Shown in pieces: positions 1-60,279 of a DNA stretch of 64,000 nt. Under the pieces are notes generated by a model. The model worked only from the letters and a program-made list of their open reading frames with translations, had not been told where the DNA came from and searched no databases. How positions within the stretch are numbered: the stretch's first letter is position 1; every line of letters begins with the position of its first letter. The translations under genes were made by a program, and so were the position numbers. The DNA is from Macrolepiota albuminosa (Eukaryota > Basidiomycota > Agaricomycetes > Agaricales > Agaricaceae): assembly GCA_027475525.1 (NCBI GenBank), contig JAMWFC010000055.1:124001-188000 (forward strand), written 5' to 3'.

Positions 1-883
1 AAACAACTTTATGACCAATGTTTGACAGGAGATCTATGTGAGATAGGTCCAATGATCGGTACGCAAGCAATGCACGTCGACGGACGTGCGGCCTGTACGA
101 AGAAGACGAGATAGGAACTCGGCAAGTATCATACAAAAACATACTAACGAGTCATGGCACAAAAGATCGTAAAGACGCATCCGGATAGCGGGAATGAGGT
201 CTTGGTTCGAAAATGCTATCACATTTTCCAAAGCGAGACAGATCCGGGGTATATCTTCGTGTTCCAGGTCCTTCATTTCAGGCTGAGATGAGTGAGTTTG
301 GGCAAGCGACTGTAACTACCTTGCGCAAAGTGTTAACCAGCATCAACTGCAGTTCATGATCGGCAGGCATAACTTCAGCACAAAATAAATAGCCTGATCA
401 TTCATTGAATGTAAAGTGAAACTTTAGGCATGATAGATCTTCACCTATCCTTTTCTGACTAACGCTTCGACCTGCCTCAGCAAGAGTGACCGCATGTGAT
501 AGCGCGAAGTCAAAAGTGTTTGGAGTTAGGAAACCATGCGACAGAGTCATGTGGCAGTAGAGAAGAGTAATTAAGTGTTTCCTACATTCCTCCTACACAA
601 AATGTCAGTCTTGCTGAGATCAGTTTCCCAGAGTGAGTTGCGGACCAGCGAAAGGTTCCTACATTCCTCCTACACAAAATGTCAGTCTTGCTGAGATCAG
701 TTTCCCAGAGTGAGTTGCGGACCAGCGAAAGGCCGGGTCGGCGAAATGACGTCGAATTGTTTCGACTTCATCCGACAAGAATTGATTAGCCGCCCGAGAA
801 GAATTGGCACATTCCACCTTGCGAACTAAGGAGTAGTATGCCCTGCTGCTTGCGCCAGAAGATATATAGGGGGGAACATCCAT
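1..883 (-). CDS. Adaptin large chain, AP-4 epsilon-like, 5' part only
   Basis: N-terminal trunk of a clathrin-adaptor-type large subunit, running off the left edge. Start ATG at 883-881 gives MDVPPYISSGASSRAYYSLV, followed by an SDEVETIRRHFADP segment. Later exons, joined over short introns, read EECRKHLITLLYCHM, then DFALSHAVTLAEAGRSVSQKRIG, YLFCAEVMPADHELQLMLV, NTLRK-DLEHEDIPRICLALENVI, NQDLIPAIRMRLYDLLCHDS and PHVRRRALLAYRSLDLSHI. The order KRIGYL..., HEL..LLVNT..KDL, IPA(V)LP, and a VRRRAL helix matches the epsilon chain of AP-4 better than gamma or alpha chains, which read differently after KRIGYL and KQIGYL. It should act in trans-Golgi to endosome sorting. A 77-bp tandem pair lies inside it; removing one copy keeps the frame. 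Exon joins were picked by eye; the class assignment within adaptins is inference. Confidence 0.7.
579..732. repeat. 77-bp exact tandem pair (579-655 / 656-732)
   Basis: In the adaptin gene; deleting one copy gives an in-frame EECRKHLITLLYCHM exon. Confidence 0.97.
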
Positions 884-953
884 GGAACAAGGTCGACGAG
901 TATTGTTGATCGCAATTATACAACGACAAATATCATCTCTGTCGCTATCCTTC
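884..953. promoter_or_regulatory. 70-bp divergent spacer between adaptin and BUB2
   Basis: Only 70 bp separate the two outward-facing start codons, so the promoters must overlap each other or the neighbouring coding/5' exon sequence. No clear TATA box is visible in it. Confidence 0.5.
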
Positions 954-2363
954 ATGTCAACGGCGTCTGCCCAGACGGCCGCCCAAGCAACTGCACGCTC
1001 GTTTAACAAAATCCTCAGTCAACCAAAGTTCTCCTCCAGGTCTCGAGCGTCCGGTGAGGTTGATGATGGTACTAAGAAATTACGACGCATGATACTCGTC
1101 GAAGGCATACCCTCCTCAGTCGTATGCACTTCATTTTGGGATCCAAAACTAAGAAATTACGACGCATGATACTCGTCGAAGGCATACCCTCCTCAGTCGT
1201 ATGCACTTCATTTTGGGATCCAAAGAACGCTCAAAGTTTCTCCAGGACCCGACTCTTCGACCCCGAATATGGAAGATTCTTCTTCGCGTGTCCGACGTAT
1301 CTGCTGATACGTTCATGAATTATGTTTCCCGCGGGCCTTGTGAAGTTCGAGAGAAGATCAGGAACGATACTTTCCGGTTAGATAAAAGAATTATTTGCGC
1401 AGTTCTTCTCGATTTATGAGAACCTGAACTATTAGAACTTTGGCAACCGATAGAGGATTTAAGGAACGTGTTCGCGAAGATATGCTCGTGCGGTTACTTG
1501 ATGCTTTCGTGTGGAAAAATCATGGTTAGTTTGACAAGTATACCACGGACTGGAGCTGATGAACGGCTTCAGATAGGCAAGAGACGCATCGGCTTGGATT
1601 TACCTATGTCCAGGGGATGAACGTCCTTGCGGCTCCATTCCTTTACACAATGCCTTCAGAACTCGAGGCGTTTTTCTGTTTTTCAAAGTTCATAGAGGAA
1701 TCTTGTCCCCTCTACGTCCAACCGACATTAGAAGGAGTCCACCGCGGTCTTAAGGTATTTGCGTCTTTGAACGTGATCATGCCAATTAGTTCATCATCTT
1801 TATTCCAGTTGTTGGACCGCGCGGTCTTAAGGTATTTGCGTCTTTGAACGTGATCATGCCAATTAGTTCATCATCTTTATTCCAGTTGTTGGACCGTGCT
1901 TGAAAATAGTCGATCCTGAACTATTCGCATATCTGCGATCTAAAAACTTGTCTGCTGAGATATATGCTTTTCCGTGTAAGCTTCAGTCTTCCACAGATGT
2001 CATTTTGCATTTATCATTTTTATGCAGCTGTGTTGACCTTGTGTGCTTGTACTCCTCCGCTTAACCAGGTGCTTCAACTTTGGGACTTCCTATTGGCCTT
2101 CGGCGTTCACCTCAATGTGCTCTGTGTCATTGCACAATTGTTGCTCATGAGAGATGATGTTATGAAATCTTCCAGGTTAGAAAATTCTCAAGGAAGTTAC
2201 AATCTTCTGACGTCCCATGACTAGTCCAATGCGCCTCTTACGCACTTTCCCAGACCTTGAAGCACTTCCTGTCATTGGGATTGCTGTTACCCTTGTCCGA
2301 GATCTTCCTTCAGAGCTCTATGATGAACTTGTACGACATCCTTACGAAATCAGAATGACCTAA
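954..2363 (+). CDS. BUB2: Mitotic checkpoint GTPase-activating protein Bub2 (TBC domain)
   Basis: Subunit of the Bub2-Bfa1 GAP that restrains the Tem1 GTPase and mitotic exit at the spindle pole. The start MSTASAQTAAQ is followed by ILSQPKFSSRSRA, LRRMILVEGIP and LRPRIWKILLRVSDV. The two catalytic TBC signatures are present: IRNDTFR near 1355-1378, carrying the arginine finger, and YVQGMNVLAAPFLY near 1605-1650, carrying the glutamine finger. Later exons read EAFFCFSKFIEE, LLDRCLKIVDPELFAYLRS, VLQLWDFLLAFGVHLNVL and a C-terminus ending HPYEIRMT. Introns are about 50-70 bp. Two 77-bp pairs (1071-1224, 1743-1896) break the frame; at both, removing one copy plus one added base restores it. An alternative upstream ATG at 882 would add 24 residues without support. 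Confidence 0.9.
1071..1224. repeat. 77-bp exact tandem pair (1071-1147 / 1148-1224)
   Basis: In BUB2 coding sequence; frame returns only with one extra base after 1224. Confidence 0.97.
1743..1896. repeat. 77-bp exact tandem pair (1743-1819 / 1820-1896)
   Basis: Spans a BUB2 intron and the LLDR exon start; one extra base after 1896 gives LLDRCLKIV. Confidence 0.97.
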
Positions 2364-2585: not shown

Positions 2586-4087
2586 ATGTCGGTAAATGAA
2601 AAACAAGGAGATCGGCCTTCGGCTCTAGAGTCATGTCCTCCTTTTGAATGCAGAAGCAACAGTGATGCACCACAAGGTCCGTCATATACTTATACGAAGC
2701 TCAACTCAGCACCCCCCTAACCCAGATCCCCCAGAAATATTCAAGAAGCTCAGCCTTCTTGACAAGCTTTTATCTCCTCTCATCATTCTAGTTATGATAA
2801 TTGGGGTCGTTATCGGCGAGTTTGTCCCTGGTGTCCAGGCCGCATTCGATACTGTTCGTTTCAGCAGCGTCTCTGTCCGTAAGTTGAAATTCGCAACAGT
2901 TCATAATTGATCCTTAGTCGTATCCCTTAAAGCCATCGCTATTGGGCTCATTGTCATGATGTGGCCTACGCTTACAAAGGTCCAGTATGAACAACTTCCA
3001 AAACTTTTCAAGACTTCCCGCCTGTGGATCCACCTAGGAATTTCTCTCTTCCAAAGGTCCAGTATGAACAACTTCCAAAACTTTTCAAGACTTCCCGCCT
3101 GTGGATCCACCTAGGAATTTCTCTCTTCTGAACTGGATTGTCGGCCCATTTGTCATGCTAGGAATTGCATGGGCAACTCTTCCTGATTTACCAACTTATC
3201 GAACCGGGGTCATTCTCGTTGGGCTTGCACGGTGCATAGCAATGGTGATGGTTTGGAATCAGCTAGCTCGAGGCGATAAAGAGTATTGCGCCATTCTTGT
3301 TATTCTCAATTCATTATTGCAGATAGTACTATACTCGCCGTATGCCCTTCTGCTTATTAACAAGATTGGCGGAGGTAATCAACCAGACATTCACGTATCT
3401 TACGGCCCTGTCGCTATATCCGTCCTGATTGTACGTTTTTTTAAGAATTTGGAGTATAAATTTCCTTTAACTATTTTCCTGCAGTATCTTGGCATTCCCC
3501 TAGGAGCAGGTGTTATTACTCGGTATAGCGTCTGGTACTTGGGGGGCAAGCCTTTCCTTGAGAAGAGATTCCTCCCTTGTTTTGGACCTTTAGCCCTTGT
3601 GGGGTTACTCTACACCATCTTGGTTATGTTCGCTTACCAAGGCCACCACATTGTCCACAATATTCGCTCGGTTTTCCGGGTTTTTGTCCCCATGATCCTC
3701 TATTTCGTCATTATGTGGTCGGGGACCTTTGCTATGATCTTTTTCCTGACGCGGAAGGACACCGGTTCACGAACTACCTTTGGGTACGAAATGGCTGTGG
3801 TGCAATCTTTTACCGCAGGAAGCAATAATTTCGTGGGTTTTGTACCTTCGATCAATTAAATAATTAGATTAATTATTGTTTTTTTTTTACATCAGGAATT
3901 GGCTATCGCAGTAGCCATTGCAGTGTACGGTGTTAGCTCTGACCAGGCACTTGCGGCAACAATTGGTCCTTTGGTTGAGGTTCCGGTGTTACTCGCTCTA
4001 ACATGGGTGGCGCTTTTCTGTGGCAAACGTTTGGAGTGGAGGAGAGTCGAAGACGCGGAGGAAAACAGGATTGAGAAACATAGTTAG
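2586..4087 (+). CDS. ACR3: Arsenite/H+ antiporter of the ACR3 family
   Basis: Plasma-membrane exporter of arsenite. Exons: 2586-2676 ([14 protein letters not shown]), intron 2677-2725, then [20 protein letters not shown] onward with about ten hydrophobic segments. Family hallmarks seen: [40 protein letters not shown] with the conserved TM4 cysteine (the ARC-AMV-VW motif), [17 protein letters not shown] and [12 protein letters not shown] with the conserved TM9 glutamate, ending in a charged tail ENRIEKHS. Introns near 3431-3484 and 3832-3896 are short GT-AG. The 77-bp pair 2975-3128 splits the exon and, once collapsed, still needs one base to join GISLF to LNWIVG. The 3' end faces a bZIP gene 148 bp away. 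Confidence 0.93.
2975..3128. repeat. 77-bp exact tandem pair (2975-3051 / 3052-3128)
   Basis: In ACR3; one extra base after 3128 gives GISLFLNWIVG. Confidence 0.97.
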
Positions 4088-5294: not shown

Positions 5295-7199
5295 CTATTC
5301 AGTTATCGTTTCCACACCCCAGACTCGTTTGAAGAGAAATGACAGAAGCACGTCTGCACCAGGCGTTTCAGTCACACAAAGAACGCTTGTGGGAAGCCGT
5401 GATCTCGTAGCTTCCTCCGTCTCGACCTGTGCGGGAAGCGCACTCGACTCCCACATGCCGTGCGAGACATTGGCTTTCTCCAGCTCGGCTTGGATTCTTG
5501 CACGATTAGCTCCGGGTGAATAAGCAGATTGATCCTCGCGTCTGTCGACAACCAGCATACCCCGTGTTAATTCACCAGTGCTAAGAATAAGTAAGGAAAC
5601 AGGCAAGCGATGAAGAGGTTGAGAATACCGTTCTATATCAAAAATTCTTGATCTTGTTTTCCAGCCAGGAGATAAGTCGCAACCCGGTGGGTTTTCTATG
5701 GCGCACCAAACAGCAACGATGTCATGAAGTTCCATCGCGTCCTTTCCGAAGCTGACCATTATCTCGCGTGTCCGTTCAAGGAATGAGCTTGTGAAATGGA
5801 CCAACGGCGATTTCCCTAAAGGCTGTGAAGGTATAGCCGTGGAGTCGAATGTCGGGTCTATGGCTTCGGTGTAAATTTGGAAAGGAAGTTCATGAGGTGT
5901 CGTAATGTCCAATGGAAGCAAAAGAAAGCGATCAAGCGGTAATCCTGATTTAGAATTAGATAACAAAAATTCCTTTGTCTCTCTTTTTTTTTGGCGGTGC
6001 AATATGACAGACGCCCATTTATCCATCACCCAGCGTAGTAGGCGAGACTTTGTCCGAGGATCGCCTTCTGCCTGCATGCGGGGGGTAACACCCGCAACGA
6101 GAGGGATTGGGCATCCAGATGGTAAAAGCAATTCCTTAACAGCATACGGGTCGGCGAAAAAGTTGACTTTCTTTTCACCCTCAGCTAAAAGAACATAACC
6201 GAAGAACACCCGCTTACACTCTGCCACAGGGCTTGTGTTCCCAGGAACATCCAGAGTACCGCCCATACACACGACTCGACCGATGTTAGCGCGGAAAAGG
6301 TCACCATCCTTTTTTATCGTATGCGCCAGATTTGTCAGAGGTCCAAGTGCGATATAGGTAATAGATCTCGGAAAAGGTCACCATCCTTTTTTATCGTATG
6401 CGCCAGATTTGTCAGAGGTCCAAGTGCGATATAGGTAATAGATCTGGAGGATAAGAACGAAGAAGTTCCAAGGTGATATCTATGCCAGACTTGTCAGTCA
6501 GATGAAGGTAAGGGTGATCCTCTGATATGATTTCTTGGGGTACGTTCAGGTCAGGATGCCGTTCGGAAATTCCACCCAGGCCATCTCTGTTGATGTTCTT
6601 TGGGTCAGAAGGATTTGGTCGTTGGGTATCGACTTGCCTTCCGTGGAAATATTGAGCACTGTGTAATTCACCTTGGAGAGGTCCATGACTACCTTTAGCC
6701 AAGATAGGTCTGTGGTTCGAAGAAAAGTTAGGAAATCGTTTCTGATACGTTGGATCCTCTTTGACACAGCGAGCAAGAGCCTGATAAGTTTTGAACACAT
6801 TCAACCTTATATAAACATTTTTAGTCATATCACCTCTTTCTCAATCAACATACAAAAAACTAACAGAGAGGCATCAATATCCGTATTTCCTAGAACGAAG
6901 TAACATATCAACCACTGTCCAGAGATTTTGTAGCTCTCAAGGCCGGAACTTGCCATAGGAGACAATGATTGCCAAGATATCGAGTTCGGGCGAGGCCAAT
7001 GCGAGTAAACTGTAAGGCTGGCCCAATCAGGAACAGTATAGGATCGTGTATTGGGCGTTGCTCGACGAACAGGGCAACAATGTCATCGACACCAGGATCA
7101 GTGTCAACTGAATCAAGGCATAAAAGTTGGGGAAAAGTTTATTTCAAAGCGAAGAGAGGACTTGCTTATAACAGGAACTCTCTCTCGCAGAGGAGACAT
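5295..7199 (-). CDS. Inosine-uridine preferring nucleoside hydrolase
   Basis: Cytosolic N-ribohydrolase that splits nucleosides to base and ribose. Start at 7199 gives MSPLRERVPVI; splicing an intron at 7108-7165 joins it to IDTDPGVDDIVAL, the calcium-binding signature of the family. Next come LLALASPELDILAIIVSYG, GNTDIDASLL, NVFKTYQALARCV, ILAKGSHGPLQGEL, YFHGR-DGLGG, ITYIALGPLTNLAHTI, VVCMGGTLDVPGN, FFADPYAVKELL and a C-terminal ELHDIVAVWCAIENPPG with the family histidine. At least three of the introns (7108-7165, 6890-6953, 6587-6637) start with GC; see findings. A probable GT-AG intron near 5945-6095 removes a low-complexity insert; the last intron joins RIFDIER to TGELTRGML. The 77-bp pair 6292-6445 breaks the frame by one base. 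Confidence 0.92.
6292..6445. repeat. 77-bp exact tandem pair (6292-6368 / 6369-6445)
   Basis: In the nucleoside hydrolase; one extra base after 6445 gives YPPRSITYIALG. Confidence 0.97.
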
Positions 7200-7749
7200 T
7201 AGATACAAAGACTTAACGATAACTTCAGGAAAAACAGAAAACATAACCAAATCCTTGAAGCTACGGAAATAGCTTATGTAATACACGCACTGTAGGACCC
7301 AACACAAATGTTCCAAAGACCTGTCGGGAAAAGCATATCAGAATCAAGAATATGAAGAGTATATGTCGTTATGAAACGTCAGAGATCTTGGTGGAAAATG
7401 TAGTCTCATTGGTATACCCTCTGAAGTAGCAAATATATTTCGAGGTGCATCATACGAAGGGCATTAAAAGAAAGCAAGAGTCTCATTGGTATACCCTCTG
7501 AAGTAGCAAATATATTTCGAGGTGCATCATACGAAGGGCATTAAAAGAAAGCAAGGCTTACCATTTCTTGATACTCGAAGAAAGTTGGAGTAAAATAAAT
7601 ACGCGCCACCAATGGTCTCAGCGGAAGAGTTTTGTTTTTACATAGGTGGGGCTTGCCGAGAACTGTACAGTCTGGTCACAGTGGCTGATGATGTGACGCT
7701 ACACCAAGTTGGAAATTCGCCTCGGTCGACTGCAAAGCCAGAAAACATC
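7200..7749. other. Spacer between nucleoside hydrolase and RACK1
   Basis: Divergent upstream regions of both genes. It contains a 77-bp tandem pair at 7412-7565. No other gene is evident. Confidence 0.6.
7412..7565. repeat. 77-bp exact tandem pair (7412-7488 / 7489-7565)
   Basis: Non-coding, upstream of RACK1. Confidence 0.97.
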
Positions 7750-9189
7750 ATGTCCGAGTCGCTGCGTTTCCTTGGATCTCTCGAGGGCCACAAAGGATGG
7801 GTTACCGCCATCGCTACCTCTTCAGAAAATCCGGACATGATTTTGACCGCTTCGCGAGGTACTTGACCTCCGACTATTTGGACTTGTGAAGGTATCTAAT
7901 CACCCTGAACAACAGACAAGACAATTATCGTCTGGCAATTGACGCGTGACGATGATAGCTACGGATTCCCCAAGAAAATTCTTCATGGACATAACCACTT
8001 CGTTTCTGACGTTGTCATCTCTTCTGACGGTCAATTTGCCCTTTCCTCCTCCTGGGACCACACACTTCGTCTTTGGGACCTCAACACCGGCTTGACTACT
8101 CGCCGCTTCGTTGGCCACACTTCCGATGTTCTGTCTGTCAGCTTCAGCGCTGATAACAGGCAAATCGTCTCCGGTTCTCGTGACAAGACCATCAAACTTT
8201 GGAATACATTGGGAGAATGCAAGTACGATATTAAAGATGATGGCCACAGTGAATGGTACGTGGCCATGGTACCAGAGATCTATATATGAACTTCATGTGA
8301 AGTTCTCAGGGTGTCTTGCGTGCGCTTCAGCCCCAACGTTAACAACCCTGTCATCGTCTCTTGCGGTTGGGACAAGGTCGTCAAGGTGAGCTTTCTTTGC
8401 GCTTCAGCCCCAACGTTAACAACCCTGTCATCGTCTCTTGCGGTTGGGACAAGGTCGTCAAGGTGAGCTTTCTTTGTTCGTTAAGGTCGATTCTATCAAT
8501 CCTTCCTCCGCTTTATGATGTTTATCGAATTTATATTTGCTACTTCAGAGGGCATCTGCCCGATGAGACCATATTTCCACCAAGATCTCTGACTTTTTCT
8601 CAATACGAATATTTACGCCAGAACTTCACTCATACTCCATAGGTCTGGGAACTTTCCAAGTTCAAGCTGAAGACGAACCACTACGGCCATACTGGCTACA
8701 TTAACACCATTTCCGTTTCTCCCGACGGTTCTCTCGCCGCTTCTGGAGGAAAGGATGGCATCACTATGCTCTGGGACCTTAACGAGGGCAAGCACCTCTA
8801 TTCCCTTGAAGCTGGTGACATTGTCAATGCTCTTGTCTTCTCACCTAACCGCTACTGGTTGTGTGCTGCTACTGCGAGCTGCGTCAAGATCTTTGATCTT
8901 GAGAGCAAGTAGGTTTCTTATTATTTCATACTAGTCTCGACACTGACGTGACCTTTTCAGATCAATTGTTGATGAGCTCAAGCCTGCTTACACTGATGTT
9001 CGTGAGGAAGCGAGGCAGCCGGAATGGACCTTTTCAGATCAATTGTTGATGAGCTCAAGCCTGCTTACACTGATGTTCGTGAGGAAGCGAGGCAGCCGGA
9101 ATGTGTTCGATTGCCTGGTCTGCGATGGCCAGACTCTCTTTGCTGGGTTCACTGACAACCAACTCCGGGTCTGGACCGTCACATCATAG
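7750..9189 (+). CDS. CPC2: RACK1/Cpc2/Asc1 ribosome-associated WD40 protein
   Basis: Seven-bladed WD40 scaffold on the 40S subunit. [20 protein letters not shown] opens blade 1; then [162 protein letters not shown] and [20 protein letters not shown]. Length and repeat spacing match RACK1. Four introns; the one before VWELSKF hosts a snoRNA. Two 77-bp pairs (8321-8474, 8950-9103) lie inside. After the second, blade 7 (SIAWSA...[12 protein letters not shown], then QLRVWTVTS and stop at 9187-9189) is only readable if single bases are added near 9105 and 9124, so the 3' end is damaged in this sequence. Confidence 0.95.
8321..8474. repeat. 77-bp exact tandem pair (8321-8397 / 8398-8474)
   Basis: Duplicates most of one RACK1 exon and the donor of the snoRNA-hosting intron. 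Confidence 0.97.
8511..8596 (+). ncRNA. U24: C/D box snoRNA U24 (snR24) inside a RACK1 intron
   Basis: Within the intron preceding the VWELSKF exon. C box atgatgt at 8515-8521, then ATATTTGCTA at 8533-8542, a C'-like cgatgag near 8561, CCACCAAGATCTCTGA ending in the D box ctga at 8589-8592. The guide block CACCAAGATC next to box D and the TTTGCTA block match what is known of U24 in human and yeast. Yeast snR24 also sits in the intron of the RACK1 orthologue ASC1, which supports the call. It would guide 2'-O-methylation of large-subunit rRNA. Confidence 0.88.
8950..9103. repeat. 77-bp exact tandem pair (8950-9026 / 9027-9103)
   Basis: Duplicates an intron end and part of the last RACK1 exon; a base is missing within a few bp of its right end. 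Confidence 0.97.
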
Positions 9190-10474: not shown

Positions 10475-10628
10475 AATTATCTGTGAAGTACTTTTACGCG
10501 TACGATCATGCTCTATGAATCACGCGTCACGCGGCATGACTCTCAGAATACAATTATCTGTGAAGTACTTTTACGCGTACGATCATGCTCTATGAATCAC
10601 GCGTCACGCGGCATGACTCTCAGAATAC
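10475..10628. repeat. 77-bp exact tandem pair (10475-10551 / 10552-10628)
   Basis: In unassigned sequence. Confidence 0.97.
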
Positions 10629-11066: not shown

Positions 11067-11652
11067 CTATTTGGGAATGTAAGACTTTGAAGATATCATG
11101 GAAAGCGTATACCAGCTTACGGCACTTATATACGGGAGAGACAAGGCAGTTCCAATGAAAGGCAGCTGCCTCAAAAAGGTGATCACGACAGGGAAAAAGT
11201 CCCTGAGAACGTTGTCAAGTGAAACGATGGGAACGTATTGGAAACAGACACGCACCCAAACAGATTCAAAAACCCGAACGTCTCTACAATCATCCCAACG
11301 AACGGCCGTTTCAAAAAGACGAGGAGAATCCCTCCCAGAAAACAGATTGTTCCACGTATTTTTTGCTTACGGGCAAAAAAGTAGAACGTTTTTTGTGGGC
11401 CAATGATCAAGGTCAAGCCAGTTATAAAGAGAAGCTTTAATACATTTCTGAGCATATTGAGGAGACGAGCCAGTCCTCCAATGACATACATTTCCGAGTG
11501 CAAGAAGAGCGCCATCGAAAAAGAGCATGACGCCGAGGAGCATAAAAAGGCCCCCAAATGTCGTAAGAGCGACACCAATTTCTGCGATAAATCATTAAGT
11601 TTGTTTGAAAACGCAATTGGAAGGACTGACTTTGTGCATCGGACAACCACAT
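11067..11652 (-). CDS. GOT1: Golgi transport protein Got1
   Basis: Small four-helix membrane protein of ER-Golgi vesicle traffic. Start at 11652: MWLSDAQ, then an intron, then IGVALTTFGGLFMLLGVMLF, FDGALLALGN, a second intron, LLFITGLTLIIGPQKTFYFF, ARKQKIRGTICFLGGILLVF, LKRPFVGMIVETFGFLNLFG, a third intron and DFFPVVITFLRQLPFIGTAL-SLPYIS. The IIGPQKTFYFFARKQKIRGT core is diagnostic. The start exon and first intron lie within a 77-bp pair (11603-11756), so the ATG is present twice (11652 and 11729); the copy nearer the body was used. The last residues after SLPYIS are uncertain because a 36-bp in-frame intron is possible. Confidence 0.93.
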
Positions 11653-11756
11653 TGTAAGACGACCAAAGAGAGAAAATAAGTTTGAAAACGCAATTGGAAG
11701 GACTGACTTTGTGCATCGGACAACCACATTGTAAGACGACCAAAGAGAGAAAATAA
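11603..11756. repeat. 77-bp exact tandem pair (11603-11679 / 11680-11756)
   Basis: Duplicates the GOT1 start exon. Confidence 0.97.
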
Positions 11757-16647: not shown

Positions 16648-16755
16648 GGTGCAATTGGGGACCGAGCTGCGGTCGGATCAGGATGCTGATTCGGCCTGAT
16701 GGGACCATATGGCAAGTTCTTATCTCACGAGCTGGGAGTGTAGTAGGGTAGGATT

Positions 16756-20635: not shown

Positions 20636-21126
20636 TTTGGGAGCAGGCGAACATGGACTATCGGCGGGTTCGTATGTAGGACGATGGCGCGCATCGAATC
20701 TGGCATTTTAAGTCGCGTTGTATTGGTATAGTAGCTTTATTATGGTACGCCCGTCAGTTTGATTTTTACCCAGTGATGCGTATTATCAGACGTCGATCAA
20801 ACCCCACTCCATAGGTCCTTCCTTTATTGTGGTACACTCTTGGACAATTTGTGTACAAAAGAAACGACACGCATATTATCGTGTAAATCCCTTCATTGTT
20901 AAATAAATGCAGCCTCTTGGACAATTTGTGTACAAAAGAAACGACACGCATATTATCGTGTAAATCCCTTCATTGTTAAATAAATGCAGCCCTCTTTCTA
21001 TCAGTACAAATATATAAATAGTTCTTAACAGGTATTCAATAAATATTATCCTTGCTTTCTCCGACCTAACCAAGGAACTCGATACAATTTGTTGCCCATC
21101 ATCCTTTATCCAATGAAGCCTGCGAA
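20636..21126. other. Convergent spacer between kinase and cyclin
   Basis: AT-rich, with a 77-bp tandem pair at 20837-20990. No gene seen. Confidence 0.6.
20837..20990. repeat. 77-bp exact tandem pair (20837-20913 / 20914-20990)
   Basis: Convergent spacer. Confidence 0.97.
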
Positions 21127-37836: not shown

Positions 37837-37876
<40 letters not shown>

Positions 37877-49313: not shown

Positions 49314-50790
49314 TTCCAAAACTTTTCGACACTGTTTTAATATCGCAACGGTCTCTCCAAAAGCTATCTATTGACTGCGAACTGGATGCGTCCGCAAAAG
49401 GCTCGTCTGTGTTCTCCTCGAATTTCGATCGTTTGGACCAAGTTGACCCAATGGGTCGCTTGACTTCATCAGATGTTCTCTCCCAGGCAGATTTTCTAGG
49501 CCGCGAGCTCCATTGATCAAAGGCCCACTCATCACTACCCTCGTCCTGTAAATCAAGTGATTTCCATTCATCCCATTTGCGCTCTTGTAACAATGCAGTT
49601 GCCTTGGCATCGGCGTGAGGCGTAGCTCCTCGATTCGATAACGCAAGCCTCTCGATTTGGGCCAAGACGTTCAGTACATCGTTGCTGCCAACTTCGAATT
49701 CTTCAGTCCAAAGGTGCTTTTCGCCGATTTCCCTGCGGAGTTGCTCTACGAGTCGACGAGTCTGCCCTGAAACCTTGACACAATTCAGCTGCATCTCCTG
49801 AAGTGCTTCGAGCACCCCTGTCAGATCTCGAAAACATTTCCATCGCGTCTCAATAAGCTGATGGTATGCTTGAGAGGAACATCCAAAAACGTAGGAGGGA
49901 GTTGAAAGACTGCGCGCGTGTTCAAATATAGATAGTGCAAGATGAGGATTGTTGAATTTTTCACGGAACTTCTGCATGATCAAAGCCACCAGATAAGGGT
50001 ATGTGGGTGGCTGAAGCATAGGGAGATCTCCTTTAACTCCAGACGAAGCAATTTCCGAGATAGCTTTCCAGGCTGCTGCTTCGTACCTCTCAGCATAGGG
50101 AGATCTCCTTTAACTCCAGACGAAGCAATTTCCGAGATAGCTTTCCAGGCTGCTGCTTCGTACCTCTCGATTCTCCAAAGACAGCATCTGTTGTCCATTC
50201 AAGAAGGTCTTGGGCATTTGTAAAGAGGTTAATAACCTTTTTGGCGATCCAGCATATCATCCAATTCTGTCGACCATTTGAGTCGTTTTGGGTACTTGCG
50301 CAGCTTACCAATCGTCAATTCCGTATTCCTACACCGACCAGATCACTAGATATAACTTTTTTCTTGAGCCGTAGCTGCTTCAAAAATCATGGCAAACATT
50401 TCGTTGAATGCGTTGCTTTCACGAGTTGTCATGGCCTGCCGAGGCCGGCGGGGTCTCTGCTGAGAAACATCGTCCGACACAGAGCTCGTTGCTTGAAAGG
50501 ATTTATCCCAAGATGAACTAGGCAAACGAAGTCAGAAGATACCCTTTCCGGACTGATGAAAGCTAGCTTACAGAGTCTGCTGAGCGTTGGTAGGGACACT
50601 CAGATAGGAACGTGACGAATGAAAAGGTCGGGCCGAAGATATCCTAACTATGCTGGACTCGAGATGGTAGGGACACTCAGATAGGAACGTGACGAATGAA
50701 AAGGTCGGGCCGAAGATATCCTAACTATGCTGGACTCGAGAACCTCGTGGCGGTCGGAAAGTAATGCCCAAGAGTGCATCTGCTGAACAT
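49126..50790 (-). CDS. MTF2-like mitochondrial protein
   Basis: Start at 50790: MFSRCTLGHYFPTATRF, then after restoring one base LESSIVRISSARPFHSSRSY, a clear mitochondrial presequence. Next SSWDKSFQATSSVSDDVSQQ, ESNAFNEMFAMIFEAATAQE, then KLRKYPKRLKWSTELDDMLD, RQKEVINLFTNAQDLLEWT, WKAISEIASSGVKGDLPMLQ, PPTYPYLVALIMQKFREKFN, NPHLALSIFEHARSLSTPSY. The F-x-E-M-F-x-M-I-F and K-R-L-K-W-S-T-E...LL-E-W blocks match the Mtf2-like domain, whose yeast member works in mitochondrial RNA processing/translation. The C-terminal 150 residues are disordered. Two 77-bp pairs; 50015-50168 collapses cleanly, 50588-50741 needs one base. The stretch at about 50290-50370 is not cleanly readable. Confidence 0.75.
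50015..50168. repeat. 77-bp exact tandem pair (50015-50091 / 50092-50168)
   Basis: MTF2-like; clean collapse gives GDLPMLQPPTYPY. Confidence 0.97.
50588..50741. repeat. 77-bp exact tandem pair (50588-50664 / 50665-50741)
   Basis: MTF2-like presequence; one extra base after 50741 needed. Confidence 0.97.
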
Positions 50791-51430: not shown

Positions 51431-52820
51431 ACCCCCTCTGAGACGCCAGCATTATGGGGCAGAATTCCTAACGGCAATTGTCACGAATATTCGGTCCATC
51501 AACAGCCATCTAACACAGTCCAGTACTGTCCTCCAACTTATCAGCAACATGATGATGGTGCCCAACTTCAACAAGGTGTGGTCACAAGGCTAGGTTAACC
51601 TTGTGCGTTTACTGATCACGGTCATCTGAGCAAGGAGACGAGAAGTCTGAGCAAGACAAACCAAATGAACATAAAGAGCACCATTGGTACGAGGATAAGG
51701 GAAAGCTTGGGCTTGCAGCAGTATGTGTTGTCATTGCGTTATGCTCACAACTGATTGATTTCAGATTGGCGGTGGTGTCGCCGCAGCCGTCCTAGGTGGG
51801 GGAATCCACCATTTTATTAAGAAACATGAGGAGAAAGAGGATGAGGTTTGTATTTATTCCTCTGATTATGCCGGTGCTGCATAAAGTTCTTACAGGAAGA
51901 AGGCCGTATCAACTGGATCAATGAAGCTAGAGCTCGTACAGAACAGTTCCATAGAGAAGGTCCAAGGGGTCCAGCCACATGGCTCCTCATGCAAGGGAAG
52001 GATTTCCCTCCGCGCGCGATTGAGGTTGGGAGGGAGAAATCTTTTCCCCTCTTCATAAGCAGAATCTATTACGATGTCAGTCACAATCTGTCCCAACAAC
52101 TTACCTTAATTCTCTCAGCTGACTGATTGTATCTCCATAGGGTGGAAAGCGTAAGTAGTATAACTTATCGATACGAGCGTTGATATAGATGAGATGTGCC
52201 AGAGATCGGCGCGGCATCTGGAGCTTTCGAGAAAGGGGCTGTCTTTGGATATAAACACAAGGAACACAAAGTAGGTTTTGCTCCGGATGTTCGAGTCCTC
52301 AGCTGAGTTGGAATCATGTACAGCGGGATATATATGAGATTCTCGTCGGTGATATACGCGGCCTACGCTGGGAACCAGCTCGTGGCAAACTTCATGTAAA
52401 CGAACTTGGCTTCAAACCTGTTGAGGGTGGCCACGAAAACGATGGATCCCCGCTATATATCATCAGAGCTGAATATAAGGGGGGATATTATCCAGGCAAA
52501 GCCAGTGCAACGCTTGATGGTAAGGATGATATTTCATGTCCAACCGATATGTATTTGATGCATCATATCCAGGCAAAGCCAGTGCAACGCTTGATGGTAA
52601 GGATGATATTTCATGTCCAACCGATATGTATTTGATGCATCATTTAAGGTGCCTATATTCCCGTCGACGGTACGGAGAAGAATGTAAAGGTAAGTTCCAT
52701 TTTACTCCCGCCCTTTCCGTTGCGGTGGTTGACGGCTTGGTCAGAATTATGAAGTCTTATGCTACAATTTTTGAGGATCTAGTCATGTATGCGTTTTAGT
52801 CTCCAGAAATTGATCGTTGA
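51430..52820 (+). CDS. DM9/DUF3421 domain protein with glycine-zipper segment
   Basis: From 51635 the reading is clear: DEKSEQDKPNEHKEHHWYED, KGKLGLAA, intron, IGGGVAAAVLGGGIHHFIKK (glycine-zipper hydrophobic helix), intron, EEGRINWINEARARTEQFHR, GPRGPATWLLMQGKDFPPRA, EKSFPLFISRIYYD, intron, IGAASGAFEKGAVFGYKHKE, intron, RDIYEILVGDIRGLRWEPAR, GFKPVEGGHENDGSPLYIIR, AEYKGGYYPGKASATLDG, intron, AYIPVDGTEKNVK and a last SPEIDR. VEGGHENDGSPLYIxRAEY...PGKA is the DM9 (lectin-like, DUF3421) signature, in two copies. An upstream Gln/Pro-rich exon (for example EYSVHQQPSNTVQYCPPTYQ) around 51430-51572 is likely but its start is unresolved. Confidence 0.8.
52489..52642. repeat. 77-bp exact tandem pair (52489-52565 / 52566-52642)
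   Basis: DM9 gene, exon end PGKASATLDG and intron. Confidence 0.97.
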
Positions 52821-52921: not shown

Positions 52922-53075
52922 AGGTTGATACATAGCAACAATATGTACACAAGGTCATGACTAATTTACCATGACTCTGTGTCCTTTACGACCCCTTCAG
53001 GTTGATACATAGCAACAATATGTACACAAGGTCATGACTAATTTACCATGACTCTGTGTCCTTTACGACCCCTTC
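52922..53075. repeat. 77-bp exact tandem pair (52922-52998 / 52999-53075)
   Basis: 3' end of the tetraspan gene. Confidence 0.97.
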
Positions 53076-54289
53076 ACAGCATACTCATCCTCCAGCTGAC
53101 CGGAGTAGTTTTCAACGATGACACAACCGTCTGCACGAACGACTAGTTAGTGCATATTTCAGATTTGAAAGGGATCACAACTCACAAATTTCAAACAACC
53201 AGAAGACGATGAAGAGGGTGACAGTGACACCCTTGACTATCTTGAGCCCTTCAGCGCATAGTCCCTGAGGATCTTTGTAGACACTGAGTGTGTGTGCATA
53301 GATACAGTCCTCCATAAAGGAACTGCTATCCTTGAAGATGCGATAGATGGCATAGATACCAACTGCTAAACTAAACAACAAGTGGGCAACGAGGGAAAAG
53401 AAGTAGAGCTTGATGAGGGCAAGTTTGCGTCCAATGGCGCCAGCTAATCTAACAACAAGTGGGCAACGAGGGAAAAGAAGTAGAGCTTGATGAGGGCAAG
53501 TTTGCGTCCAATGGCGCCAGCTAATCTAGTGTGGTTTTATTCAGGACAAGAAAAAAGCAGTCCACAAAATGATACTTACCCAAGAATTGAGACGAAAGCA
53601 AGAAGTGAATAGACAGCGATAGAGATTCCAAGCGAAACTTTACTTCCGGCTGAATAGACGTGTAAATTAAAGATTATTGCAAAAAAAAGAAGAAACGGAC
53701 GCACTAATTTCACTAGAATTCAATCCCCCGATTACTGCAACCAATCCTCCTCCCAGTATGCCAATCAAGGCTACAATCTGTACGGCGCGTCAAGAAGACA
53801 GGATAGGAAGATAGGGTGAGGAAAACCCACGACGACACCAAACCTCGTCGGAAGGCAGCAGCAAAACTTGCGAGTGGGTACAACAGTCATTATTGTTAAT
53901 TAGCTAGGGGTGTTCGTAAGGTTGTGTCTTGTCAAATGTGTGGAGATGCGGTGGACGGATACAATCCTTATTCTTAGTCGCGGGGGGAACAGGGCCAGCC
54001 TATTGGAAGCATCGTCGTCAGAGTCGCGTAGTTTATGTACTCCTGGCATTCCGAGTAACACCGGCTTATGCCTCGGGATCGCCACATCATGATCATCAAA
54101 ACGATTGATGGGAGCTTGTGATCGTTGAGGTTTGTTTCCAAGTATTGAAGGACTTGCCTCTGAATAGTATGTAAGAAATTGGCGTTGATGAAACACGCCA
54201 GCAATAATCAAGTACCCGGTAGATATCAGGATAGGAGATAGGTAGATCTCCCTCCATTGGTTACTAATTGCGAACTTTTCGTTCTTCAT
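53063..54289 (-). CDS. Fungal tetraspan-type membrane protein
   Basis: Start at 54289: MKNEKFAISNQWREIYLSPI. Later exons: IVALIGILGGGLVAVIGGLN, KVSLGISIAVYSLLAFVSIL, LAGAIGRKLALIKLYFFSLV, AHLLFSLAVGIYAIYRIFKD, SSFMEDCIYAHTLSVYKDPQ, GLCAEGLKIVKGVTVTLFIV, FWLFEI, intron, YGCVIVENYSGQLEDEYAVK-GS. Four hydrophobic helices with a Cys-containing loop before the last one, a layout common in fungal tetraspan/MARVEL-like proteins. Function unknown. The pair 53374-53527 collapses cleanly (HLLFSLAV); 52922-53075 covers the stop codon, which is therefore duplicated. Confidence 0.7.
53374..53527. repeat. 77-bp exact tandem pair (53374-53450 / 53451-53527)
   Basis: Tetraspan gene; clean collapse gives VAHLLFSLAVG. 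Confidence 0.97.
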
Positions 54290-54390: not shown

Positions 54391-54544
54391 ATTTGGTGGT
54401 ATAACTCGAGAATTTCAAGGGAATATTCCTTCCTAGGAATATCCGCGCGGCCATTAAATAAGCAAGTATTTGGTGGTATAACTCGAGAATTTCAAGGGAA
54501 TATTCCTTCCTAGGAATATCCGCGCGGCCATTAAATAAGCAAGT
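54391..54544. repeat. 77-bp exact tandem pair (54391-54467 / 54468-54544)
   Basis: Spacer upstream of the tetraspan gene. Confidence 0.97.
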
Positions 54545-54627
54545 ATGGATACGAAACAAAGGCAAGAACTCAAAAAAAAAGCAAATGTAGTTATTGGTCG
54601 CGAGCTTGAGCGAATCAGGAATCCCAC

Positions 54628-56368
54628 TTAAAATCTTCGATAATAATTGTCTGGATAGTGATTCTCGTAGTATGCTGGGGATCTGCTTCTTGAGCGTCTG
54701 GAACTCCGGCTTGAAGAACGATGTCGGCTGGAGGAACGGTGTCGGCTGGAGGAACGGTGTCGGCTTGAGGAACGGTGTCGGCTTGGGGAACGGTGTCGGC
54801 TTGAGGAACGGTGTCGGTGACGCTGGCTGTGATGCTTGGGTTTTCGCGACGGGGAGTCGAGAACAATTACTGGTGGTTGTCTCGGAGCCGCTACGGTGGC
54901 ATTTCCGTAAGCCCCCGCGTAGATACTTTGTGGCATATATGATACGGACGCACTGCGTCCGCGATGAACCTGGTGAGCTGTATGGATTGGCACATTGACG
55001 GGCATAGGCTGGGCTGCGTAGACTTGGGTTTGGTAGGGCTGGCCTTGATATGATTGTACAGCGACAGGTTGATAGGGCTGACTAATGTACGAAGTTGCGG
55101 TACTAAGTGGCACAGTACGTTGGTAAGGCGTCCCATGGGTAGGCATGATTATGGGTGTACTGTTTCCCGAAAACGTTCCATAAGTCGAAGACGGGACAGG
55201 ATAACTAGTAACAGGGCCCTGATATTGACGTCCAGAGAGTGGAGATGTAATTGACATATCTTCTAGATGAAGAGCAGGTGGATGCGAATGCGAGCGAGAA
55301 CGAGGCCGCGAGTGCGAGCGGTGATTGTTGAAATAGGGGGCGCTGACTTCACTATCAGAAGAATATAGATCACTATAAGAGCTGCCAGGACTGCCGAAGC
55401 GACTCCGAGAACGACCCCGCCGAGAGTCCCCTTCTTCTCGATTCTGTCAGAAGTGATACTGAGGCGTCAGGTTACTGGTGACTAAAAACCTACCTCATAG
55501 AATATAGTGGAAGCGGTCGCTGCTGCCGTTTCTGAAGCTGTTAGACGTGCATATTTATCCGTCTGTCGCCCAGCATAGGCAAGGAGACGAGCCACTGAAA
55601 TTTCAGGGTGAATAAAATGCGGGAGATAGAAAAGACTGAGGCTACCTTCTCCAACTGCAAGGCCAATTAGGCCTTGACGCTGGACTTCACCGTTCAAAGG
55701 TTCGTATATAGAACTATTATGAATCCAAGTGCGATAAGCTTCATACGCAGCTGCATGCCCAATCTCAGGAGGCAACATGCGATTCAACTCGTTCTACGAT
55801 AAAGTAAGACCGGATCTGAGTGCTAAAAAGATGTTCTTACCAGTTTATAGGCTCGGTAATGCCAATGTTGGGCTTCATGAATTCCAACACCAGAATTCAC
55901 TGCAGTTCCAAGGCCGGTATGATCACGAACGCGACCCCATGCGTGATCAAAGAGAGATCTATTGGAAGCAGATTTCTTGAGAATGGACCTGAGCGGAGAA
56001 TGGGGCATAATTGATCCTCACGGATCCTGAGAGGCAGCGTGAGCGCGGTAAAAGTCCAAGCCTCCCCCTATTTAACGTGATCGGATCGGCAGATGTCAGT
56101 GCCTCGTGGCGAATAAGACAAGGTACGGCCGGACGACTCACAATATGGCTGAGGCTGAAAACTCGGAATAGGTGGAGGACCAAATTGGGACTGTGTGAAC
56201 ATTGAACTGGGGGAAAGGGAACGAAGAAACATACACTTGCCTGGGATGATCCCCACGCAAATTGGGACTGTGTGAACATTGAACTGGGGGAAAGGGAACG
56301 AAGAAACATACACTTGCCTGGGATGATCCCCACGCAGGAGAAGCATGTTGATAGTGGCTGTATGGCAT
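54628..56368 (-). CDS. Basidiomycete protein with C-terminal RS-type repeats
   Basis: Start at 56368: MPYSHYQHASPAWGSSQ; intron; PPPIPSFQPQPY; intron; then AWGRVRDHTGLGTAVNSGVG, IHEAQHWHYRAYKL, NRMLPPEIGHAAAYEAYRTW, IHNSSIYEPLNGEVQRQGLI, GLAVGE, ISVARLLAYAGRQTDKYARL, TASETAAATASTIFYE. This folded-looking block is followed by RGRSRSRFGSPGSSYSDLYS and a Tyr/Pro/Gln-rich stretch (SYPVPSSTYGTFSGNSTPII) and ends with six SRHRSSSRHRS-like units and a tyrosine-rich tail. I associate the block EIGHAAAYEAYRTWIHNSSIYEP with uncharacterised mushroom proteins. RS tails suggest SR-kinase targets; that is inference. The 77-bp pair 56181-56334 lies in the 5' intron/exon region. Confidence 0.75.
54708..54826. 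repeat. 18-bp coding repeat, about six units
   Basis: Units close to gtgtcggctggaggaacg with third-position-like changes; they encode the RHRSSS repeats of the minus-strand protein. Confidence 0.85.
56181..56334. repeat. 77-bp exact tandem pair (56181-56257 / 56258-56334)
   Basis: 5' intron and exon of the RS-tailed gene. Confidence 0.97.
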
Positions 56369-56517: not shown

Positions 56518-59500
56518 ATGGCCGGTCAGTCTCCTCCATCTACTTCTGCTAGAACCCTGACCTCTGTTCAGATTTCGCAGTCTTCTCTACTCTCAACTTT
56601 GATGCCAATGAGTACGCCAATGCTATCCTGGCCGGCGAACCATATCCCTCAGACGGTAAGCCCACTGGGAAGCTAACAGTTTCGCACCAAGACCTTCCGG
56701 CAAAAGAGGACATCTCCGTCTCTATATCTAAACTTACTCTCTCAATCGACGATGTGTCCAAGCAAATCAAGAATGTCGTAAGTCTACCTCGTCATAGCGG
56801 GAATTATTGCTCAACTCTTCTAGGTCTCCACTCATCACGAAGCTCTTCTGTCACAAGCTGCCAGTGCGCACAATCTTTCGGGGTCTTTGACGTCCGTTCG
56901 AGGAGGCCTTGATGATCTGGATTCATCTCTGGACAAGCAAGTCATATGCCCCATTCCGTTGCAGCTATTTATATCAACTTCGTAGACTTCGTCTCAAAAT
57001 ACGCGTTCCATATCACTCTCTACGCGCGCATGTATCCCGTCTGCAAAAGTTGCGACAAGCTTCTGACATCTTGCGACGTACCTCTCGCTTTGTCATTTTG
57101 GCTCGCAGACTTCAGCTTCAAATGACTGCCATGGACCACACCGCTACCGCCGAGGAGCCTGCCAAATCTGCGAGGACGGAAGCATTCGATGTCACGGGTC
57201 TGTCTACATCAAAAGATTCTGGGGATGAAAAAGAACGAATTATAGCCAAGGCCGCACTTAGCATTGCGGAACTAGGTAAGCACACAACTCGTGTCTTTCA
57301 TATAAAATTGACCGAATTATAGCCAAGGCCGCACTTAGCATTGCGGAACTAGGTAAGCACACAACTCGTGTCTTTCATATAAAATTGACAAGGCATCAGT
57401 TTCGCTACTCCACGGGGCTAATAATGAAAACAAGGTTGGAGATAGGAATGGAGAATGCGCTAAAGATTCCGTAAATTCTGTCGCTGGCAATGTCAATGAT
57501 GATTCGGAACAAGATGTTCCTCTTCGTTCAATCGCCGCTGTAGCCGCTCATGTGCGTTTTATTGAAGAAGCCCAGACGAAAATCACGCACGAAATGGAAA
57601 CTATGGTGTTAACTGGATTGACAACTTTGGTCCGTCATCATTTGGTTTATCGGGTTGGATTTTCTTACAGCACACTCTCTACACGATTAGAATCAGTCTC
57701 TGCTCGCATCCTCCTTACAAACCGCATATAACCTTCGGGTTCTCCCACAACTTGTACAGAACCTCATCCTCGACCTCTCGCAGGCCGTCGAAGATTGCAT
57801 ACGTAACGCTTTTGATCTAACGAAGATATCCAAAGAGGCACTGTCTAAAGGTGCTATCTATCTATCTGTCTGTAAGAAACTTCAATGTTGATCATGATGC
57901 TTTATAGATGCAGCAGCCAATTCACCACAGTCCCCTCCCACATATCGGTCACGCGTCAGGACTGAACCCACCAACGTCACTGCACCCCACTACATTGCAA
58001 CCTTGTGGTCGCGCCTCGAAGTGATGATAGAGGAAATGGCAAATTGTTGTATCAAGGTACGTACTCTTGATTAGCCAAAATCTCTCGGATACACACTCCC
58101 ATGACCACCTCCATATGGAATTGTTGTATCAAGGTACGTACTCTTGATTAGCCAAAATCTCTCGGATACACACTCCCATGACCACCTCCATATGGACTTG
58201 TGTTGCCACAGGCACTTTCTGTGCAATCATGTCACTTTTTATCTATTCCGCGACTGATACGGTTTCTGTACACGTGTGGCCTAAACGAGGGACACAAGCC
58301 GCATTTGTCGATTACGTACTTTTAGGTCCGTCCTGACCTGGAAATTTCCGTAGGTGTACACACTTGAAAGGGTATTGAGGTTAAAGAAGGATGTGGCGAC
58401 CCAGGCGATTTTTCTAGATGAAGCAATGAAGGTAACACGTCGACCTCTATGATTGAGCTGAATGCATTTGCGTACCTTACCTATGTGCGGAATCCAGTGT
58501 TTGGAAAACAAACCCAGTGCCACATTCTGGACATCGCTCGGTCTAGCTGTGGAGAAACATGCACGAGATGCAGCGAAGGGTAAGCAGTGGTTGGTTTTAT
58601 CGATAATAAACTAATCTCCCCAGGCTCTGCCTTTATTCAACAGAGTTTGAGCACGGGATATCCCAAGCTTCTGAGACTATTCCATGAATTTTTCGCGAAG
58701 ATTGCTGTTCATACTGACACAGTATATGTACCAACATACCAAAGGTATCAAAGTCAGATATGGCATTCAATATATTGTTTTAATCGTCGATTCTCAGTCC
58801 GGAGACCGTCTTTATACTCCGCGCCCTTTCCAATTTCGAGACTTTATATCTCTCAAGGTCGTCGACCAAGCTCAATGAAGCCGTGGGCCAAGCCTTTAGC
58901 GGTGGCACCCGTACACCTCCAGGAGCTAGCGAAGGCACTAACGTCGCGCGCACGATGATTAACGAACTTGATTCAGCAAGATTTGATCCTTTGCTTGTCC
59001 GTGCAGTCGCTAAGAATGTATCGTCGAGTATCGACAACCTTCTTTCGAGGGTGGATGGTTTGGTCAGTTTACCAGTTTTTTTTGTCGTCTTATTCATCCA
59101 AGTCTGCCAGGCTACACGGGATCGTTCGGCGGTCGCACTGACTGGGCCAACGGCAACACCTCAGCAAGCAACTAATGCTCAATTGGCGACCTGTTTATAC
59201 CAGTGTTGGCTCAAACTCAACACGCTCAGAAACGACCATACAGAAGTTGTATTCGATGTTTTGAAATCTAATATACAGGTATTCATATTCATATTTGAGA
59301 ACACTTCAGCAAAATGTCTCATTTGTGAGACCATAGAATGTGCACAAAGCATATGAACAGTTGATGGAGCCCCTAATGACAGCGATCCGTCGAGAATTGA
59401 ATGCGATCATCGTCAAACTCCATCGAATTGACTTTGGTAAAGATGTGGACCCTACGTCCGGCATAGGAGGTTCCAGCTTCTATATGAAAGAACTTGTGGA

Positions 59501-60279
59501 GAAGCTCTCGTTCATAAAGGCGGAAATTTTGAGCAAATTCGCCATTGGCGAGGATGGCAAGACCTGGTACGCTTAGTCCTCTGTTTCTAGGCTCTAGTGG
59601 TCGTTTATGTGCTACCCAGGGTCCTTTCTATTGTCAAAGATGTAATAAAGACATTTGTGATGCATGTCTCAATCGCTAGGCCGCTTGGGGAGAGTGGGAA
59701 ACTTCGACTAACAAGTGATATGGGTGAACTTGAATTTTCCTTGAGCGCTTTTTTGGCGGGAAATCCCCAGAATAAACGTGGTGGTGATCTGGAAGCGGTT
59801 GGTGACGAGTATCGAACTTGAGCGCTTTTTTGGCGGGAAATCCCCAGAATAAACGTGGTGGTGATCTGGAAGCGGTTGGTGACGAGTATCGAACTCTGAG
59901 GGCGATGAGGTGAGCGTGTCGGCGTGGGCTCCAGGCTGATGACAAATGACACAAATTTCCGCAGACCACTATTATTTCTCGAGAATTCAATGCTGGCAAA
60001 TCCTGAACGAACAACTGGGCTGCCCCCGCTTATTGTTTACACCATATCCTTGTCCGTTCGCCGATGCCATTGCCGCACAACTTGCATGGATGGCAAGAAG
60101 CCGAATATGTCCGATGGGTGGGTGAACATACCGAAAAGGAATCTTGGTCTCTTATTGAAGGAGGTCTGGGCCATTACGAGAAGGTGTCTGAGAGCGAAGG
60201 CAGAGACAGTACAGCTGCAAAAGAGTTCATTGATTTGGCACGGACCGTATTGCAGAATGCGGAATATAGTTTACAGTGA
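56518..60279 (+). CDS. COG5: Conserved oligomeric Golgi complex subunit 5
   Basis: Lobe-B subunit of the COG tether for retrograde Golgi vesicles. Exon 1 is ATGGCCG (MA-), an intron joins DFAVFSTLNFDANEYANAIL; then SISKLTLSIDDVSKQIKN, VVSTHHEALLSQAASAHNLS, GSLTSVRGGLDDLDSSLDKL, RLKIRVPYHSLRAHVSRLQK, LRQASDILRRTSRFVILARR, LRSIAAVAAHVRFIEEAQTK, VLPQLVQNLILDLSQAVEDC, VMIEEMANCCIKVYTLERVL, LKKDVATQAIFLDEAMK, FHEFFAKIAVHTDTVYVPTY, RFDPLLVRAVAKNVSSSIDN, FIKAEILSKFAIGEDGKTW, TFVMHVSIARPLGESGKLRL, TSDMGELEFSLSAFLAGNPQ, ending FIDLARTVLQNAEYSLQ. The VRGGLDDLDSSLDKLRLKIR and SDMGELEF motifs are diagnostic. Three 77-bp pairs lie inside; 59740-59893 collapses cleanly (EYRTLRAMRPLLFLEN). Confidence 0.93.
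57236..57389. repeat. 77-bp exact tandem pair (57236-57312 / 57313-57389)
   Basis: COG5 exon end KAALSIAEL and intron. Confidence 0.97.
58042..58195. repeat. 77-bp exact tandem pair (58042-58118 / 58119-58195)
   Basis: COG5 exon end NCCIK and intron. Confidence 0.97.
59740..59893. repeat. 77-bp exact tandem pair (59740-59816 / 59817-59893)
   Basis: COG5; clean collapse gives DEYRTLRAM. The match is 78 bp. Confidence 0.97.

Follow-up and report, generated by a model that had tools for sequence, protein, structure and literature searches.

Exact overlaps of k bases are characteristic of contig ends in de Bruijn graph assembly, as in the terminal k-mer repeats of circular contigs and in adjoining unitigs, and in assemblies of the SPAdes type neighbouring graph edges share exactly k bases. 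Assemblies may also contain false duplications, tandem or segmental, for example those left by unmerged haplotypes, which are variable in length and consist of two slightly different alleles. Short tandem duplications of biological origin, generated by replication slippage, microhomology-mediated events or templated insertion, vary in length and make use of microhomology.

The tandem pairs described here were found in a stretch of 64,000 nucleotides (henceforth the window), which is part of a fungal assembly comprising 129 contigs and 100 Mb; PMC10021994 describes a different assembly of 70 Mb. The pairs resemble the overlaps of de Bruijn contig ends in that the repeat has the length k, consists of arbitrary sequence and lies at graph branch points, but differ in that the copies are internal, number in the thousands by extrapolation, are mostly one-sided in the orientation of the contig and often stand beside a lost base. 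With false assembly duplications they share extra copies that have no existence outside the assembly and disrupt gene models; unlike unmerged haplotypes, the pairs of the window are all of 77 bases and identical. Their copies are adjacent and head-to-tail, as in biological short tandem duplications, whereas their length is constant and the homology at their junctions is at the level of chance. The pairs are almost certainly an artefact of one kind or another, and we consider, with a probability of roughly 0.7, that a left-to-right step with k = 77 over the finished contigs rewrote the last good 77-mer at discrepancies.

A scan of the window at offsets of 15-2000 for exact matches at least 40 bases long gave 41 runs at offset 77, from position 579 to the pair at 59740-59895 (Table 1), the sole other run of at least 40 being one at offset 15. 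With runs of at least 20 and offsets of 10-1000 the number at 77 was still 41, and offsets 12, 15, 18, 30, 33 and 36 contributed one or two each. The preliminary description had claimed 41 exact tandem pairs of the single offset 77, and at base level this is borne out, as is the perfect identity of the copies; the length of 77-78 that it gave is too narrow, the runs measuring 77 (19 sites), 78 (14), 79 (5) or 80 (3). No imperfect 77-offset pairs (at least 60 of 77 positions matching) occur in the window. The units are likewise unrelated in sequence, as had been stated: compared with each other, the 41 gave no non-self match at E 0.01, and 40 of them match nothing in the window beyond their own pair, one unit having a third match.

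Table 1. Tandem pairs at offset 77 in the window (run, length of the exact run in bases).
Position	Run	Context and junction
579..732	77	
1071..1224	77	
1743..1896	77	within RabGAP-TBC (BUB2-like) gene; right side of copy 2 one base short (by eye, against a motif)
2975..3128	77	within ACR3; segment single in relatives; right side of copy 2 one base short
6292..6445	77	5' part of nucleoside hydrolase reading frame (minus strand)
7402..7555	77	
8321..8476	79	
8950..9103	77	
10475..10628	77	
11603..11756	77	
12589..12745	80	
15228..15382	78	two reading frames give net +77 (by eye)
15994..16148	78	
16311..16467	80	net +77 (by eye)
18213..18366	77	protein kinase gene; spans exon-intron border (by eye)
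18479..18635	80	kinase gene; right side of copy 2 one base short (by eye, against homologues)
19618..19771	77	kinase gene
19850..20003	77	kinase gene
20837..20991	78	
21661..21815	78	cyclin gene (minus strand)
21874..22028	78	
23614..23768	78	
23883..24036	77	
27152..27306	78	
29582..29735	77	right side of copy 2 one base short against P0121 (by eye)
30226..30379	77	one copy in P0121 read-through; right side of copy 2 one base short
31374..31528	78	one copy in P0121 read-through; no base missing at junction
32016..32170	78	
37064..37218	78	
40059..40214	79	
41071..41224	77	nucleoside transporter gene; frame gives net +77 (by eye)
50015..50168	77	MTF2 gene (minus strand); right side of copy 2 one base short (by eye)
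50588..50741	77	
52489..52643	78	at end of DM9 repeat match
52922..53076	78	
53374..53528	78	
54391..54546	79	
56181..56336	79	
57236..57389	77	adjoins weak COG5 match
58042..58196	78	
59740..59895	79	

The pairs are not confined to the window. Since 13 of 23 other stretches of the assembly carry them (40 pairs in 191,598 bases read), the whole may, by extrapolation from the stretches read, contain some 16,000-21,000. It had been proposed that a sharp spike at 77 in a scan by offset would support an artefact, and the 305,644 bases read show such a spike, 128 of their 129 full tandem pairs with offsets of 30-400 lying at exactly this value. From these counts, as from those of spacing and run length, the overlapping or identical stretches L001, L025, L033 and L035 were dropped. 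As to DNA of other origin, a contig judged by eye from its open reading frames to be Pseudomonas-like (L018) showed no pairs in 10,000 bases, which proves little, and searches with COX1 for a mitochondrial contig and with bacterial 16S returned no match.

In the relatives compared, the segment is single. All 11 relatives compared at the ACR3 site (2975) align one segment to both copies of the window, and P0001, an ACR3 relative from another source that is 99% identical, contains the segment once. A second near-identical protein, P0121 (708 aa, 98% identical), reads through the sites at 30226 and 31374 with one copy, so that at the level of protein the second copy is missing at three sites; P0121 ends just inside the unit at 29582, and copy number is therefore not tested there. 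Among copies of transposons scored in one search, 27 of 39 align in two parts split at the pair, the parts overlapping in the subject, and so have the segment once; the other 12 run through the pair, which we count against a left-to-right walk. The seven of these that were fetched (L034-L040, of which L034 is identical to L035) each contain a neighbouring tandem pair at offset 77. Most transposon pairs differ in register. An exact register is common to L027:2775 and L031:2598, and likewise to L028:1650 and L029:1650, which are separate loci; a shared branch of the graph or an inherited duplication could explain this.

The bases flanking the units provide a further line of evidence: there is a tendency for units to stop immediately short of a base that is lost or different, for the most part on the right. 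In the orientation of the FASTA record, with few copies per side (3-9) and a divergence threshold of 60% or more, the first base to the right of the unit diverged at 17 of 49 transposon sites (control 5.6%) and that to the left at 5 of 49, slightly above its control of 3.9% (p = 0.04). Within three bases the corresponding numbers were 25 and 9, and bases were missing beside the unit at six sites on the right and at none on the left, four of the six belonging to one locus, L037. At the remaining 32 of the 49 sites the first right base was without divergence at this threshold, which again counts against a left-to-right walk. These 49 are what was left of 55 sites in transposon loci (L035 included) after omission of those lying 60 bases or less from the end of a locus or with fewer than three comparable copies per side; L001, L025, L033 and L035 were also left out of the comparison. 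The elements lie on either strand, and because the loci were kept in the orientation of the contig, the side of divergence follows the FASTA record and not the strand of the element.

The same asymmetry is seen in the window, where near-identical proteins cover four sites: three of these are one base short to the right of copy 2, and none is short to the left. At 2975 and 30226 this follows from alignment coordinates and at 29582 from reading by eye; at 31374 one base is absent some 50 bases further right, relative to P0121. Frames at 1743, 15228, 16311, 18479, 41071 and 50015 were read by eye, in some cases with a motif as guide, and carry less weight than 29582, read by eye against a near-identical protein, which in turn carries less than 2975, 30226 and 31374 with their alignment coordinates. 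At 15228, 16311 and 41071 the net change is +77, and any discrepancy there would therefore have to be a substitution. Run lengths of 77, 78, 79 and 80 or more (70, 39, 13 and 6 of 128 pairs) fit chance, no microhomology above chance being found at the junctions (p = 0.95). The minimum among 101 spacings between pairs was 157, whereas a model with a floor of 78 leads one to expect a mean of 7.3 spacings under 155 and, in 5000 runs, lacked such spacings just once.

How then could a fixed 77-base unit arise? A real biological process duplicating exactly 77 bp anywhere in the fungus would be in keeping with the presence of the pairs in many assembled contigs, whether in genes, introns or transposons, and with the exact register common to two pairs of transposon sites. 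Yet the offset is fixed, where biological tandem duplication is expected to vary in length, the reading frames of conserved genes are broken, and the window is devoid of diverged old pairs; the single copy in relatives and near-identical proteins, a junction homology no greater than chance and a side of divergence tied to the arbitrary FASTA orientation rather than to the strand of the element together lead us to reject duplication of fixed length, to which we attach a negligible likelihood. A fungal process that measured 77 bp and, at thousands of places in each genome, copied in situ the segment immediately preceding a one-base lesion is harder still to credit. The proposal that the pairs are artefactual is upheld by the single offset and by the single copy in the relatives compared. 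An origin in the reads themselves, from chimeric or concatenated library fragments or from reads of about 77 bases built into the consensus, might account for the constant unit if reads or fragments were all of one length, but it would need to prevail in the consensus thousands of times over and explains neither the ending of units at divergence points nor the one-sidedness in contig orientation, and we consider it very improbable.

The link to de Bruijn assembly with k = 77 withstands scrutiny, in view of the single offset, the units ending at divergence and the floor of the spacings. The particular cause first suggested, that adjoining contigs were concatenated with their overlap untrimmed, or the same event at the graph edges of a SPAdes-type assembly with k = 77, agrees with an offset of exactly 77 and no other long offset, with the patchy distribution and with the tendency of sites to lie at points of divergence. 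Such joins should, however, show equal sides, no lost base and spacings down to 78 (k + 1). Because equal-sided divergence and spacings under 155 are predicted and not seen (17 against 5 of 49 sites, losses on the right only, no spacing below 157), plain untrimmed joining is not supported in that form, and as a cause it appears rather doubtful. The left-to-right walk with k = 77 is preferred since divergence and lost bases lie mostly to the right in FASTA orientation and no spacing falls below 157. In such a walk, each finished contig would be traversed from left to right by a step that used either a k-mer table or a de Bruijn graph with k = 77; if the next base of the contig disagreed with the graph, being lost or different, the last good 77-mer would be written a second time, after which the contig's own uncorrected sequence would continue. 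We infer that this was a correction or path-writing step applied to the final contigs. Among the literature matches listed, we recognised neither a program with this fault nor k-length tandem artefacts, which is no claim of their absence from print.

In its present form the assembly is unfit for annotation or comparison. By extrapolation the false insertions total 1.2-1.6 Mb (roughly 16,000-21,000 x 77 bases), each one in an exon shifts the reading frame, and several mark a missing base as well. Any tally of pseudogenes, introns, tandem repeats or retrotransposon decay taken from the record would be wrong. A search for a sharp tandem offset is a simple check for any assembly, the offset giving k, and the side of divergence helps to tell untrimmed joins and left-to-right correction apart.

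Of the conserved genes first named as broken, ACR3 is confirmed by protein comparison, and a RabGAP-TBC gene, which fits BUB2, and MTF2 have the support of Pfam. For COG5, one of two pieces tested scored 24.5 bits, just below the Pfam cut-off of 24.7, and two pieces of UTP6 were without a Pfam match. Further genes at the sites encode a protein kinase, a nucleoside hydrolase, a cyclin and a nucleoside transporter. The protein search with the kinase region found no near-identical protein, the best matches being more distant (at most 63% identity), and a PDB search with a piece of the kinase bore on the identity of the gene only. The named matches point to Termitomyces and Tephrocybe relatives.

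The 41 tandem pairs at a single offset of 77 reported in the preliminary description were confirmed by a scan of the window for exact runs (offsets 15-2000, runs of at least 40 bases), which returned 41 runs at offset 77, the only other run having offset 15, and comparison of all 41 repeated units bore out that they are unrelated to one another. The fixed offset therefore stands, while the identity, previously put at 77-78 bases, extends slightly further, to 77 (19 runs), 78 (14), 79 (5) or 80 (3) bases; all window pairs are perfect, and no imperfect pair at this offset occurs there. The window (C90:124001-188000) belongs to an assembly of 100,137,612 bases in 129 contigs, and pairs were present in 13 of 23 further stretches chosen by place and absent from the other 10. 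These stretches hold 40 pairs per 191,598 bases, or 26 per 161,598 once the window's three neighbours on C90 are excluded, and scaling up gives about 16,000-21,000 pairs for the whole assembly, an approximate number given how unevenly the pairs are spread. In the 305,644 bases read (leaving out the overlapping or identical loci L001, L025, L033 and L035), 128 full pairs have offset 77 and a single one has any other offset between 30 and 400.

The pairs are a confirmed observation, yet they are no biological feature but an artefact. The locus L002 (1-10000, on contig C1) carries a GC-rich (0.63) retrotransposon, judged by eye to be Ty3-type, that recurs on many contigs; a search in which 40 of 667 candidates were scored listed 110 matches. 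In another search of the genome, with one stretch of a Ty3-type retrotransposon (40 places scored, the query included), 27 of the 39 non-query places broke exactly at a pair with a subject overlap of the unit length, and therefore hold the unit once. The remaining 12 pass through unbroken; each of the seven fetched has its own nearby 77-offset pair (one just 70 bases long), as expected because places were ranked by alignment score. A second retrotransposon stretch likewise breaks at all three of its pairs. Pair registers mostly differ between copies, by 3 to 50 bases where close; the two exact coincidences (see table) could reflect either a branch of the graph common to both copies or inheritance of the pair.

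Protein comparisons point the same way. In all 11 ACR3 proteins compared, out of 120 listed (P0001-P0005, P0007, P0008, P0012, P0016, P0022, P0025), a single segment of ~26-28 residues matches both window copies and the remainder then continues; on these alignments, the second copy is absent from the relatives compared. Identity of the ACR3 piece is 78-80% in Termitomyces, 77-78% in Tephrocybe and 99% in one protein of source code lgn, which we take to be an independent assembly from public reads. Because of these matches the organism is, by sequence, a mushroom close to Termitomyces and Tephrocybe (family Lyophyllaceae). Near-identical sequence evidence is at the protein level and concerns four window sites: the 708-aa protein P0121 (98% identity across 81% of the query) spans sites 30226 and 31374 with a single copy, and provides no copy-number test at 29582, since it ends just within that unit.

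Located features: the 12 of 41 window sites covered by frame classing (named by start), and other intervals and loci
Position	Feature	Observation	Basis
1743, 18479, 50015	pairs	one base short on right	by eye
2975, 30226	pairs (2975 in ACR3)	one base short immediately right of copy 2, therefore net excess 76; no base lost on left	protein, alignment coordinates
15228, 16311, 41071	pairs	net 77; next base a third codon position	by eye
19618, 19850	pairs	combined frame shift a multiple of three	
29582	pair	one base short right of copy 2; no base lost on left	by eye
31374	pair	excess 77; one base absent ~50 bases rightward	P0121
31575-31585	no 77-base pair directly adjoining	base apparently absent	98% identical P0121
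41225-50014, 59896-64000, L014 (the 10,000 bases that follow on C90)	long pair-free stretches	adjoin dense ones	
L002:2429, L002:2871, L026:738, L026:1246, L038:1777, L024:1836	77-offset pairs outside window	interrupted or shortened by differing bases	
L027:2775, L031:2598	retrotransposon pairs	same register; identical over 154 bases	
L028:1650, L029:1650	retrotransposon pairs	same register	
C81 827411-830953 (L034), 271014-274556 (L035)	3,543 bases each	100% identical, common 77-base pair	

The third-position bases beside three of these sites would fit real allelic differences splitting the graph, and the summed shift of 19618 and 19850 is what one site of each kind would give. Because a base is apparently absent at 31575-31585, the assembly seems also to have indel errors unmarked by any pair.

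As to the cause, a biological duplication of fixed length was considered and rejected. Among the 128 pairs, runs of 77, 78, 79 and 80 or more bases number 70, 39, 13 and 6, in agreement with the expectation for a repeated 77-base unit lengthened solely by chance matches (chi-square p = 0.95), so that the junctions bear no sign of biological duplication. Furthermore, the side of divergence is bound to the FASTA record. At 49 transposon sites where three or more copies could be compared on each side (3-9 per site, a small number), the first base beside the unit differed from at least 60% of copies on the right in 17 (control 5.6%, binomial p = 5e-10) and on the left in five (control 3.9%, p = 0.04); divergence within three bases occurred at 25 and nine, respectively, and six sites, four of them in the locus L037, lacked a base on the right, whereas no site lacked one on the left. 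Since loci were kept in contig orientation with the element on either strand, divergence side tracks the record, clearly in minus-strand elements (12 right, two left, n=31) and weakly in plus-strand elements (five and three, n=18), a dependence that no cellular process can have. Substitutions adjoining the unit may reflect genuine variation among the copies instead of errors.

The preliminary description proposed neighbouring contigs joined without merging their overlap at k = 77. That k is standard in SPAdes, in which adjoining edges share exactly k bases, and as the cause it is retained; plain joining is not supported in that form, for it predicts two-sided divergence, whereas the observed divergence is mostly on the right, and smaller spacings than the observed minimum of 157 (n=101). 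If pairs could be placed anywhere with a minimum spacing of 78, which is the shortest edge that a graph of k = 77 can have, ~7.3 spacings below 155 would be expected; none was observed, an outcome reached in only one of 5000 simulations. The floor lies near 2k, as a walk needing one good 77-mer between discrepancies would give. In the simplest reading, a k = 77 step would traverse the finished contigs left to right and, on reaching a base at odds with its graph, would write out the last good 77-mer again before resuming the uncorrected contig sequence. One copy of the imperfect pairs outside the window was perhaps changed by later polishing. The assembly is unsafe for gene annotation unless corrected from reads.

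Other irregularities were also observed. A search of the assembly for COX1 gave no match, and the mitochondrial genome therefore seems to be missing. The 12.8-kb contig C129, with 0 pairs at offset 77 in its first 10,000 bases (L018, 1-10000), resembles Pseudomonas DNA, with RND efflux and acyltransferase-type reading frames as judged by eye, and so seems to be a bacterial contaminant within the fungal assembly. The identical segments of C81 reflect either duplication in the very recent past or another duplication made by the assembly.
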